A DNA stretch of 56,710 bases, from positions 1-56,710 of the forward strand of contig CALWXR010000009.1 of the NCBI GenBank assembly GCA_944385535.1, written 5' to 3'. The number at the start of each line of letters is the position of its first letter. Within the stretch, counting starts at the first letter, position 1. The translations under genes were made by a program, and so were the position numbers. Below the pieces are notes generated by a model, which saw only the letters and a program-made list of their open reading frames with translations, was not told the origin of the DNA and searched no databases. This document shows, piece by piece, positions 18,960 to 33,563 of the stretch. Source of the DNA: an uncultured Oscillospiraceae bacterium (GTDB lineage: Bacteria > Bacillota > Clostridia > Oscillospirales > Oscillospiraceae).

Positions 18960-19616
18960 TCATTTGCTGTTCTTTCCCCGTTCCTTGAAATCCTGGTCAA
19001 TGCGCGTTTTCCAGGAGCTGCCCAGAGGGGCGCTGCACCGGACGGAGGTGACGGCGTCGCACAGGACTTCGTAATTCAGCTGGGTGCCCTGGTGGTCGCT
19101 GTGGTAGGTCACCGCCCGGTCCGCGCCGATGCCGAAGTGGCTGGCGGTCTCCACCGCGTCAATGTTGGCCCCCAGGAACAGGAACTCCCAGCCGTACTGC
19201 TCCTGCTGCCGCTTGACCATCTGTCGCACCCGGTCGGCGCTGTAGCGGCGGCTGGCGTTTTCCATGCCGTCGGTGGTGATGACGAACAGGGTGTGCTCCG
19301 GCACGTCCTCTTCCCGGGCGTACTTATGGACGTTGCCGATGTGGTGGATGGCCCCGCCGATGGCGTCCAGCAGAGCGGTGCAGCCCTGAACCTGGTAGTC
19401 CCGATCCGTCATAGACCGGATGCTTTGAATATTCACCCGGTCATGGAGCACAAGGCTTTTGTTGTCAAAGAGTACGGTGGAGACCAGGGCTTCCCCATTC
19501 TGCTTTTTCTGCTTCTCAATCAGGGAATTGAAGCCGCCGATGGTGTCTTTTTCCAGTCCGTGCATGGAGCCGCTGCGGTCCAGAATGAAAACGATCTCAG
19601 TCAAATTCTTCTTCAT
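18960..19616 (-). CDS. von Willebrand factor A domain protein
   Basis: 218 aa, nearly all one vWA fold. The metal-ion-dependent adhesion site is complete: 'DRSGSM' (residues 13-18), the Thr in 'GCTALLDAIGG' (about 78-88) and 'TTDGMENAS' (about 114-122). There is no signal peptide or membrane segment, so it is cytoplasmic. The closest look-alikes are stand-alone phage- or toxic-metal-associated vWA proteins of unknown role. No MoxR ATPase or other usual partner is adjacent, so function is open. RBS AGGAGG lies just before the ATG. Confidence 0.85.
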   Translation of the reverse strand: MKKNLTEIVFILDRSGSMHGLEKDTIGGFNSLIEKQKKQNGEALVSTVLFDNKSLVLHDRVNIQSIRSMTDRDYQVQGCTALLDAIGGAIHHIGNVHKYAREEDVPEHTLFVITTDGMENASRRYSADRVRQMVKRQQEQYGWEFLFLGANIDAVETASHFGIGADRAVTYHSDHQGTQLNYEVLCDAVTSVRCSAPLGSSWKTRIDQDFKERGKNSK

Positions 19617-19722: not shown

Positions 19723-20286
19723 TCAGGGACGGTTGTCATTCATGCCGTACAGGGTGCCGCTGAAAAACGCGGTCAGAAGGGAGGACAGCTGCTCTATGGA
19801 GGGCGGGGCTTCGTCCCGGATCCACAATACCACCAGCTGAGCCAGAGCACCGCTGAGCATGGCTTCGCTGTAGGGAAGCAGCTGCGTTTTTTTCTCCCTG
19901 CTGATGAAGCGCTGGGCGAAGGCGGACACACAGGCCAGGATCTCATCATATAGGATTCCATAAAGCGCGTCCCGTAAAATGGCGTCGATCAGCGGACGAT
20001 TTTGGGTGACGACGGAAAAGAAGGCTTCCAGAAGATCCGGCAAGGGCAGTTCCTTCCGGGAGGCCAGGGCGGTAAACTGCTCCCGATAGGTCTGCTTCAG
20101 GCAGAAGCGGAGAACCGCCTCCTTGTCCGGGAAAAAGTTGTAAAAGGTCTGGCGGGATAGGCCGGCCCGCTGGCACAGATCCCGGACGGTGATCCGCGAA
20201 TAAGGGCGCTCTGCCATCAGGGCGGTCATGCTTTGGGCCAGCCATTGCTGGGATTGAAGGGCGGTGGGATTGGAGCCTGCATACAT
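19723..20286 (-). CDS. TetR family transcriptional regulator
   Basis: 187 aa from the ATG at 20286, about 8 bases after GAGAGGA; a start at 20292 would be too close to it. The N-terminal HTH is 'RITVRDLCQRAGLSRQTFYNFFPDKEAVL', textbook TetR, and the rest is the helical ligand-binding domain ('DAILRDALYGILYDEIL'). It is transcribed divergently from a membrane protein, and mirror-image TTGACA-N2-TGTCAA palindromes cover both -35 hexamers, so it probably represses itself and its neighbour until a small molecule binds. The inducer is unknown. Confidence 0.92.
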   Translation of the reverse strand: MYAGSNPTALQSQQWLAQSMTALMAERPYSRITVRDLCQRAGLSRQTFYNFFPDKEAVLRFCLKQTYREQFTALASRKELPLPDLLEAFFSVVTQNRPLIDAILRDALYGILYDEILACVSAFAQRFISREKKTQLLPYSEAMLSGALAQLVVLWIRDEAPPSIEQLSSLLTAFFSGTLYGMNDNRP

Positions 20287-20325
20287 GGACATTTTCCTCT
20301 CAATGTACAAGTTATCCGATAAAGA

Positions 20326-20339
20326 TTGACATTTGTCAA
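20326..20339. promoter_or_regulatory. TetR operator over the -35 of the membrane-protein gene
   Basis: TTGACATTTGTCAA, a perfect 6-bp-arm palindrome whose left arm is the -35 hexamer of the plus-strand promoter. Confidence 0.75.
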
Positions 20340-20354
20340 AGTAATCGGTATGAT
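20326..20354 (+). promoter_or_regulatory. Promoter of the terpene-cyclase-like gene
   Basis: TTGACA (20326-20331), 17 bases, TATGAT (20349-20354). Confidence 0.8.
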
Positions 20355-20381
20355 GGTACCATAAACTTTGACACATGTCAA
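20353..20381 (-). promoter_or_regulatory. Promoter of the tetR gene
   Basis: Minus-strand TTGACA (20376-20381), 17 bases, TACCAT (20353-20358). Its -10 overlaps the -10 of the opposite promoter by two bases. Confidence 0.7.
20368..20381. promoter_or_regulatory. TetR operator over the tetR -35
   Basis: TTGACACATGTCAA, a perfect palindrome 42 bp from its twin at 20326-20339. Confidence 0.75.
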
Positions 20382-20399
20382 TATTCGGAGGGAAATACT

Positions 20400-21053
20400 A
20401 TGGATACGCTTATCAATATGCTCGTTGCCATCAGCGGCCTGTGCTGGTCTGCTGTGTATGTGGATTCCATCCGCACCGGCTTCCGGCAGCGAACCTGCTG
20501 CATGCCCCTGTTTGCCCTTGGGCTGAACATTGCCTGGGAGGGGATCTACGCCTATACGGATCTGTTTATCCGCCACGCCTATGGGGTACAGGCCATGGCA
20601 AACACCGTCTGGTTCCTGTTGGATATTTTTATTCTGGTCACCTGGTTCCGGTATGGCCGGGAGGAGATGAAGGGGCAGGCGGGCAAACAGTGGTTTGTTC
20701 CCTGGTCTTGTCTGGTGCTGGCAGCGTGCTTTGTGCTTCAGATCCTGTTTCTGGTGGAATTCGGGGATGTGGAGGGAGAGAAATACTCCGCCTTCCTGCA
20801 AAACATCGCCATGAGCGTGGCCTATCTGTATATGCTTCAGCGCCGGGGATCTTCCAAGGGACAGACTATGTGCATCGGGGTGTGCAAGTGCGTCGGCACT
20901 CTGACCCCCACGATCTACGGCGCCCTGGAAGGAAACACCTTCATTCTGGTCACCGGCGTGATTTGCTTCGTGTTCGATCTGATCTATATTTTTGCCCTGT
21001 ATTCCGTGAAAAAAGCGGAGGCGGCAAAAAAGACGGCAGCCGCGGCAGTGTAA
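20400..21053 (+). CDS. Seven-helix membrane protein resembling integral-membrane terpene cyclases (PaxB/Pyr4-like)
   Basis: 217 aa with about seven membrane segments and a basic tail. I see 'LNIAWEGIYAY' with Glu47 in the second helix, 'NTVWFLLDIFI' (residues 69-79), and Asp193 in 'FVFDLIYIFALY' in the last helix. In the fungal Pyr4/PaxB family a Glu in an N-x-x-W-E helix and an Asp near the last helix are the catalytic acids, at a similar spacing. I therefore infer kinship with membrane-bound terpene cyclases or their bacterial homologues; the reaction, if any, is unknown, and no prenyltransferase is nearby. GGAGGG precedes the ATG. Expression appears to be controlled by the divergent TetR. 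Confidence 0.6.
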   Translation: MDTLINMLVAISGLCWSAVYVDSIRTGFRQRTCCMPLFALGLNIAWEGIYAYTDLFIRHAYGVQAMANTVWFLLDIFILVTWFRYGREEMKGQAGKQWFVPWSCLVLAACFVLQILFLVEFGDVEGEKYSAFLQNIAMSVAYLYMLQRRGSSKGQTMCIGVCKCVGTLTPTIYGALEGNTFILVTGVICFVFDLIYIFALYSVKKAEAAKKTAAAAV

Positions 21054-32092: not shown

Positions 32093-32743
32093 TCAGTTTT
32101 CTTTGCAATGCCGGTGGTAGTAACGATAGGCGTAGACCATGGGGACGATCACCAGCACGGCCAGGGCGGCGAACATGACCCACAGGCCGATTGCCTCCGG
32201 CAGGAAGGCGCACAGCAGGATTCCAATGCTGCCTGCGATCCACACCCGTCCGCCGAAGCGGTGGGTGGCGTTCCAGGTGTCCTCGTCCGCCAGCGTCCAG
32301 GGGATCCGGATGCCGATGGTGTGGTTTCTCCGGCATTTGGGCAGATAGTTGCCGATGATGAGAAACAGAATGCCGACCATCAGGTACATGACGGTGCTGA
32401 TGGAGAGGGGGACGCCCAGGGCGATGGCATAGACCATGCCGCAGCAGATGTTGCTGATCAGCGGGACGATCCAAACCACCAGAGACAGCGCCTTCTTGTT
32501 TTGCTCCTGATTTCCCGGATCCCGGGCGGTGATAAAGACGCACAGCCAGTGGACGCCTAACAGGAGCAGGGGCAGGAAGAACACGGCAAAGGACTTGCTG
32601 GACCAACCGTCCGCCTGGCCGTGAAAGTTCCAGTGGGTGGCGATTACATCAGGGAGCTGATTCCACAGCAGCAGTCCCGCGGCAATGGGCAGCAGGGTGG
32701 CCAAGGAGGATAGGATCAGGCTGATTCGTCTCTTACGCATCAT
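32093..32743 (-). CDS. SdpI family membrane immunity/signal protein
   Basis: 216 aa from the ATG at 32743 (AAGGAG upstream). About six membrane segments. The N-terminal half has the DUF1648 pattern 'LPDVIATHWNFHGQADGWSSK' (about residues 27-47), and the second half the SdpI motif 'NHTIGIRIPWTLADEDTWNATHRFGG' (about 138-163). In Bacillus, SdpI gives immunity to the SDP toxin and sequesters the repressor SdpR. An sdpR-like gene heads this operon but no toxin gene is seen, so a sensing or self-protection role is inferred. It overlaps the YhfC gene by 11 bases. Confidence 0.9.
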   Translation of the reverse strand: MMRKRRISLILSSLATLLPIAAGLLLWNQLPDVIATHWNFHGQADGWSSKSFAVFFLPLLLLGVHWLCVFITARDPGNQEQNKKALSLVVWIVPLISNICCGMVYAIALGVPLSISTVMYLMVGILFLIIGNYLPKCRRNHTIGIRIPWTLADEDTWNATHRFGGRVWIAGSIGILLCAFLPEAIGLWVMFAALAVLVIVPMVYAYRYYHRHCKEN

Positions 32744-33563
32744 ATAGCGCTCCTTTCTGACAGGCAGGCCACCACCGGGAAAGACGGCGAAGCAGGAAAA
32801 GGGAAAGGGCGGCCATGGCGGCAATGCAGACATAGATCAGGATATACGCGGTGGTTAGGGGGAATATGCCGGTGAAGCTGGGGGTCATGTCCAGCAGGGT
32901 ATGCAGAAGCAGGCACAGCAGAAGACATTGAACCGTCCGCTTTGCCTGTACGCCGTAGCAGACCAGCACCGACAGACCGGCGTGGCAGACCATGGTCAGC
33001 ATCCGCTCCAGTCCGGCCAGCAGGAACATGGCGGGATGGGTGTTCACCAGGGCGTCTTTAACTGCCAGCAGCTGGGAAACATCCGCGCCCATGGCCTCCG
33101 TCTGGGCGATCAGGGCGTCAAAGCTTCCGGAACGGATCAGGAACAGGCAGACAATGTTATTGACATAGGTAAGGCCCACCAAAAGCATGGATTCGATGCC
33201 CCCATGGCCCAATCCGGCAGCCAGCGCCCGGGAAAAGGGAAGATCCTTTCGCTGAAGAAGCTTCGCCGTGGCAAACCGGCCGGAAAGTTCAAACAATCCG
33301 GCGGTAAACGCCAAACTCAGGCAGTACAGGAAAAAGTGCTCCTGGGAAAAGGTCAGGAAGCCTTCCGACGCGGCCAGCAGATTCATCAGCGGCAGTCGGA
33401 TGAGGATCTGGGGAACAAAGAAACCCGCCGCCCCCAGGAACCAGGCGGAACAGAGCTTCTCCCCGGGATGCTTGCGCGCAAGGAGAACGAGAATCAGCAC
33501 CGGAAGGATCAGGGTTACAAACAGGGTGACAAAACAGGCGGCAAACGCGGCGTTAGCGATCAT
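32733..33563 (-). CDS. YhfC family intramembrane glutamic-type protease
   Basis: 276 aa, about seven to eight membrane helices. Conserved-looking polar motifs lie inside helices: 'FELSGRF' (about residues 91-97), 'GLGHGGIESML' (about 117-127) and 'LLHTLLDMTPSF' (about 218-229), the layout expected for the YhfC branch of CPBP-like intramembrane proteases. Substrate unknown. It lies between sdpR and sdpI, with 11-base overlaps on both sides, so all three are made together. Confidence 0.82.
   Translation of the reverse strand: MIANAAFAACFVTLFVTLILPVLILVLLARKHPGEKLCSAWFLGAAGFFVPQILIRLPLMNLLAASEGFLTFSQEHFFLYCLSLAFTAGLFELSGRFATAKLLQRKDLPFSRALAAGLGHGGIESMLLVGLTYVNNIVCLFLIRSGSFDALIAQTEAMGADVSQLLAVKDALVNTHPAMFLLAGLERMLTMVCHAGLSVLVCYGVQAKRTVQCLLLCLLLHTLLDMTPSFTGIFPLTTAYILIYVCIAAMAALSLFLLRRLSRWWPACQKGALYDA

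Follow-up and report, generated by a model that had tools for sequence, protein, structure and literature searches.

A TetR-paired homologue of Pyr4-like membrane terpene cyclases in an uncultured Oscillospiraceae bacterium

We analysed a 56,710-nucleotide stretch of DNA from an uncultured Oscillospiraceae bacterium (GCA_944385535.1, contig CALWXR010000009.1, positions 1 to 56,710), called the window here, in which the gene for a small predicted membrane protein stands divergently beside that of a TetR-family regulator. The locus has the following features.

19723..20292, minus strand: gene for a TetR-family regulator, divergent from the cyclase gene, with its likely start at 20292 or 20286 (TetR_N 39.2 bits, cut-off 24)
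20326..20339, no strand assigned: putative TetR operator 1, TTGACATTTGTCAA, an exact match that overlaps the -35 box of the cyclase promoter
20326..20354, plus strand: sigma-70-like promoter of the cyclase gene (TTGACA, 17 nt, TATGAT), 11 of 12 consensus positions
20353..20381, minus strand: sigma-70-like promoter of the tetR gene (TTGACA, 17 nt, TACCAT), 10 of 12 consensus positions
20368..20381, no strand assigned: putative TetR operator 2, TTGACACATGTCAA, an exact match that overlaps the -35 box of the tetR promoter, with the exact site also in the Agathobacter locus L005
20387..20392, plus strand: likely ribosome-binding site GGAGGG, read from the sequence
20400..21053, plus strand: gene for a Pyr4-like transmembrane terpene cyclase homologue of 217 residues, assigned by its PF25129 match, its conserved residues and the mutagenesis of DmtA1 (PMC6173783)
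21073..21106, matched on both strands: intrinsic terminator-like hairpin, a stem of 13 pairs with a T run after it (the scanned region has 3 sites of this kind, 2.0 expected)

The first-pass annotation had described the 217-residue reading frame together with three motifs that it likened to those of fungal Pyr4-type cyclases, and all of these proved exact: Glu47 lies within NIAWEGIYAY, Asp75 within NTVWFLLDIFI and Asp193 within VFDLIYIF. The profile similarity that it anticipated is also borne out. In a Pfam-A search the protein matches PF25129, the family of Pyr4-like transmembrane terpene cyclases, over profile positions 15-226 of 227 with 95.7 bits against a cut-off of 27 (E 4.4e-27), and on this sequence evidence its membership of the family is near certain; the score and the conserved residues described below rule out a chance resemblance. 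The second-best family, MtN3_slv, covers residues 140-204 with 19.9 bits, below its cut-off of 23.7, and we accordingly reject identity as a sugar transporter of the MtN3/SWEET type. The single NCBIfam match falls far below its cut-off, and a search of solved structures gave no sequence relative (best E 0.9). A simple hydropathy profile shows four clear membrane segments and about three of lesser strength, which is compatible with seven helices and is no proof of their count. The gene occurs in one copy in the source genome and in none of 14 control genomes.

To locate a candidate active site we relied on an alignment of 30 full-length homologues, taken from the 34 loci with a matching reading frame after exclusion of the partial genes L002, L007, L008 and L013; L009, which scores below the family cut-off, and two further Streptomyces clavuligerus records also lie outside it. 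Glu47 and Asp193, the acid pair singled out in the first-pass annotation, are identical in all 30 sequences, as are Tyr20, Trp16, Trp46, Tyr196, Asp75 and several others, with Asn43 kept in 29, and this conservation of the active-site residues extends to ∼29% identity. A close comparison is with DmtA1, the drimentine cyclase of Streptomyces youssoufiensis, which the available text of PMC6173783 reports to have seven transmembrane helices; its W, Y, N, W, E and D..Y blocks are matched in the present protein. That study, which also cites the original Pyr4 residues (Itoh 2010), mutated ten positions: activity was abolished in the E60A/Q, Y33A/F, W29A and W59A variants and poor in N56A and Y217A, D214A formed very little product, D94 was also required and C58 was dispensable. 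Through the residue numbers given there, and not through the DmtA1 sequence itself, seven of the ten positions find counterparts in our protein with equal local spacing, at an offset of 13 for Trp-29, Tyr-33, Asn-56, Trp-59 and Glu-60 (here Trp16, Tyr20, Asn43, Trp46 and Glu47) and of 21 for Asp-214 and Tyr-217 (here Asp193 and Tyr196); the position of Cys-58 is occupied by Ala45. These seven residues are therefore likely to belong to the active site, with Asp75 as a further candidate. Asp75, which is invariant, may correspond to Asp-94 of DmtA1, which the same text describes, together with Glu-133, as unique to DmtA1-3 and so as a feature of that subgroup; Glu-133 has no assigned counterpart in the present protein. 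The same pattern of conservation would be expected of a non-catalytic ligand-binding protein too.

The layout of the region between the two genes suits repression by the adjacent TetR protein. The mechanical reading frame of the tetR gene reaches 20376, but a start at 20292 or 20286 is likelier because the promoter-like site for this gene occupies 20381-20353, and because the Agathobacter homologue (L005) has the same MSMY start region. Three promoter-like sites were found in the scanned region against 1.2 expected. Exact TTGACANNTGTCAA palindromes occur twice in the window, against 0.002 expected by a first-order Markov estimate. Once up to two mismatches are allowed, the window holds three operator-like sites against an expected 1.36, a number reached in 13 of 100 shuffles and so unremarkable, and the argument for the operators consequently rests on their exactness and position. 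The first-pass annotation had called the gene TetR-controlled; the divergent TetR-family gene and the exact palindromes over the promoters, which recur in relatives, agree with that claim, and control of the cyclase gene through putative operators over two opposed promoters is supported as a prediction.

Among the 51 loci compared, exact TTGACANNTGTCAA is confined to the source locus (L001, L004), L005 (the same as L029), L030 (twice), L031 and L034, and every such site in the relatives adjoins a cyclase or tetR gene. A different motif, the TGTWACA-type site TGTWACANNTGTWACA, is found at L032, L033 and L038, with a near form at L035. The TetR proteins of the window, L005, L030 and L034 share the helix text LSRQTFYN, and those of the second group carry a different recognition helix, of the type V(A/S)R(L/M); helix and site motif thus vary together, each motif group having its own helix, in a comparison of eight proteins made by eye. 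Neither operator motif is present at L006 and L036, each of which has a TetR-like neighbour. At L031 an exact TTGACANNTGTCAA lies upstream of the cyclase gene (L031:1481-1494), yet no TetR-like reading frame was found within 13 kb (L055).

A TetR-like gene adjoins the cyclase gene at nine of the ten full-length loci from the window, L006 and the family of G1281 (window, L005, L006 and L030-L036), being divergent in eight and downstream on the same strand in L030, with L031 as the locus that has none. Pfam supports these TetR-like genes except that of L036, which falls just below both cut-offs (TetR_N 22.7 bits, cut-off 24; TetR_C_8 24.0 bits, cut-off 26.1). The genus of G654 is arranged differently: 1 of its 15 loci (L038) has a TetR-like gene, four (L037, L042, L046 and L048) have an upstream AraC-family regulator with GyrI-like and Cass2 domains, and the remaining loci show no TetR-like gene within flanks of ∼1.5 kb. 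Elsewhere, a TetR-like reading frame in the surroundings of L011 (L016) lies ∼3.8 kb from the cyclase gene, too distant to be counted as a neighbour, and none was found at L010, L021, L022 or L023.

Other kinds of neighbour appear at two relatives. At L035 a FUSC_2 gene lies directly 3' of the cyclase gene. At L052:2153-8528 the cyclase gene shares one strand with genes matching CrtC (44.1 bits, cut-off 22.5), FUSC_2 (59.8 bits, cut-off 25.6; third in the row) and Caroten_synth (37.2 bits, cut-off 25); CrtC and Caroten_synth homologues occur at no other locus compared. CrtC and CruF are carotenoid hydratases, which carry out proton-triggered chemistry on terminal isoprene double bonds, a resemblance to what is proposed here for the cyclase. 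Their families are unrelated to the cyclase, and matches to them are found only in the L052 gene row, with none in the window. By their annotation the CrtC and Caroten_synth neighbours, present in a relative, point to an isoprenoid, and the FUSC neighbours and GyrI-type AraC regulators, all in relatives too, point to foreign compounds. The L052 row is perhaps carried on a mobile element. A relaxase gene lies close to it. In plasmid records, the FUSC partner has partial matches in two Enterococcus records, the CrtC-like partner matches 91 records (three with at least 80% coverage, all below 60% identity) and the carotenoid-synthesis-like protein matched none.

Relatives of the cyclase itself are found in six plasmid records, four from Streptomyces and two from Nostoc. 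One Streptomyces plasmid relative (L020:7363-13883) overlaps a TetR gene and has an annotated hydroxyneurosporene dehydrogenase ∼4 kb downstream, for which the AsqO_C match is weak and below cut-off. One Nostoc plasmid relative (L022:7974-9794) adjoins a gene annotated as isopentenyl phosphate kinase, which is AA_kinase by Pfam. A phage or viral origin was rejected, as phage records gave no match at E 0.01 and none of 30 pattern matches in viral contigs was a relative.

The cyclase gene is a rare and solitary one in the source lineage. A search of 136 genomes from the source genus gave three matches, two of them partial and one of these near a contig end, and there were matches in 3 of 394 genomes of the order (two above cut-off), 5 of 391 of the class and 1 of 398 of the phylum, the last being the source genome; the family of G1281 gave 8 of 250 and the genus of G654 14 of 68. 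These genome sets overlap in the source genome or in the genome used as centre, and the larger sets are samples. The window protein groups with L005 in the tree, and a starred set of five (support 100/98) unites these two with L030 and L033 from the family of G1281 and with L006 from Pseudobutyrivibrio. Because the tree joins proteins from these sources, it suggests that the gene has moved between lineages. The GC content of the cyclase-tetR pair is 0.55, near the 0.576 of the window. Partial copies suggest repeated loss of the gene. In genomes of the same genus or class they lie at L007:8001-8201, L002:1468-1821 (near a contig end) and L013:1510-1920, the last followed by a reading frame that reads as transposase-like.

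The first-pass annotation had further stated that no prenyl donor pathway to such products is known in bacteria of this kind, and this proves largely right. The source genome, which is 99.05% complete, was searched throughout for UbiA, SQS_PSY and polyprenyl synthase. UbiA gave no hit above cut-off (best 21 bits, cut-off 34.2) and was positive in all 14 control genomes, and SQS_PSY, the squalene/phytoene synthase family, was absent and was positive in 7 of the 14; one polyprenyl synthase, however, is present. Among the 45 other window proteins scanned (limit 1e-6, part at 1e-3, short and overlapping reading frames left out) there was no terpenoid family, and 10 of the 45 matched no family at all. 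The nearby prenyltransferase and core-forming enzymes by which meroterpenoid clusters are recognised are not found at the source locus. Given that no UbiA above cut-off and no SQS_PSY accompany the one polyprenyl synthase, ordinary meroterpenoid synthesis is unlikely, as is, judged on these three families, a standard route to a prenylated substrate in this genome. Since the usual substrate-making enzymes are missing, the protein may work on extracellular compounds. The source bacterium probably lives in the gut.

Given this combination of features, the gene looks more like a standalone inducible unit than a biosynthetic gene, and the reading that we favour, while placing it somewhat below an even chance, is that the protein is an inducible small Pyr4-type membrane cyclase that modifies an incoming isoprenoid, with activity, ligand and substrate all inferred. 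Glu47, aided by Asn43, Tyr20 and Asp193, and perhaps Asp75, would trigger ring closure by donating a proton to an alkene or epoxide group of a linear isoprenoid that is dissolved in the membrane. The substrate, having no dedicated pathway in this cell, would be supplied from outside by the diet, the host or other microbes; this compound, or one related to it, would release the TetR protein, and cyclisation would alter or disarm the substrate, so that the gene would serve as an inducible one-enzyme response to isoprenoids and not as part of a biosynthetic cluster. TetR-controlled efflux and detoxification pairs have a divergent repressor, palindromes over opposed promoters and a single membrane protein as target. 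The cyclase-tetR pair shares that layout, but its target is a cyclase homologue where those pairs have a pump or a known detoxifying enzyme. More tentatively, the same may be true of clostridial standalone Pyr4-like cyclases in general, which would constitute an inducible handling of foreign isoprenoids in which a ligand-responsive regulator, either TetR or an AraC protein that has a GyrI-like domain, senses a terpenoid whose chain is then protonated and closed by the membrane cyclase, in some cases together with CrtC- and CruF-like proteins and a FUSC pump.

One alternative, which we consider unlikely but worth weighing, is that the protein provides the cyclisation step of a native pathway whose genes are dispersed: a small terpenoid would be made from farnesyl or polyprenyl diphosphate by genes located elsewhere, and the TetR protein would time its production. 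The single polyprenyl synthase would fit such a pathway, as would the Nostoc plasmid relative beside the annotated isopentenyl phosphate kinase, and the available text of PMC11109268 suggests that in two basidiomycete clusters, for which no prenyltransferase gene is known, the Pyr4 homologue might use a ubiquitous polyprenyl molecule. The lack of UbiA above cut-off and of SQS_PSY, the window proteins scanned without a terpenoid family and the rarity of the gene in its genus, with two of its three matches partial, argue against it. It is improbable that the protein has kept the Pyr4 fold and lost its reaction, serving as a receptor that binds a hydrophobic compound or as an exporter that moves it; the weak MtN3_slv match, to a sugar-efflux family, and the FUSC_2 neighbours of L035 and L052 would be in keeping with this, whereas the retention of seven positions whose role in catalysis was tested in DmtA1, with both acids among them, down to the most distant homologues aligned speaks for catalysis. 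Least probable of all is an envelope-stress response directed at polyprenyl lipids of the cell itself, undecaprenyl carriers for example, since the predicted membrane location, the repressor-type promoter and the polyprenyl carriers expected in the cell are set against a patchy distribution of the gene and against GyrI-like small-molecule domains in the regulators of four relatives, which indicate foreign ligands.

Overall, the observation recorded in the first-pass annotation is confirmed and its interpretation supported, with the correction that bacterial Pyr4-like cyclases are already known (PMC6173783 and PMC13307353, in their available text). Like fungal Pyr4 and the bacterial XiaH, TylF, GroF and ZigF described in PMC13307353, the window protein belongs to PF25129 and conserves the acid pair, but the characterised members in the available part of that paper serve biosynthetic pathways, whereas here the gene stands beside a tetR gene only, in a genome with no UbiA above cut-off. 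DmtA1, as described in the available text of PMC6173783, is likewise accompanied by a cyclodipeptide synthase and a phytoene-synthase-like prenyltransferase, unlike the present protein, for which we found no such partner. In a literature search that covered titles and the starts of abstracts and reached few subscription papers, no TetR-paired or clostridial Pyr4-like gene appears among the matches listed. Partial texts of two surveys report that 264 of 1107 bacterial candidates passed a filter for nearby terpenoid genes (PMC13307353) and that 690 of 1050 fungal clusters were without another core gene (PMC11109268). Many members of the family thus have no biosynthetic neighbours, and this locus offers a small test case, in which a single enzyme is paired with a single regulator and defined candidate operators and the genome lacks the prenyltransferase families that were searched. 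If the ligand of the regulator were a dietary, host or microbial terpenoid, the locus would represent a new kind of isoprenoid transformation and a possible biosensor, and the handling of foreign isoprenoids, if true, would give a defensive or metabolic use to a family otherwise characterised only in biosynthesis in the literature covered.

Two further loci in the window were recorded in passing. A 218-residue protein encoded at 18960-19616 resembles von Willebrand A domains by eye and has no Pfam match at 1e-6, and at 32093-33563 membrane proteins of the SdpI and YhfC families are encoded adjacently.
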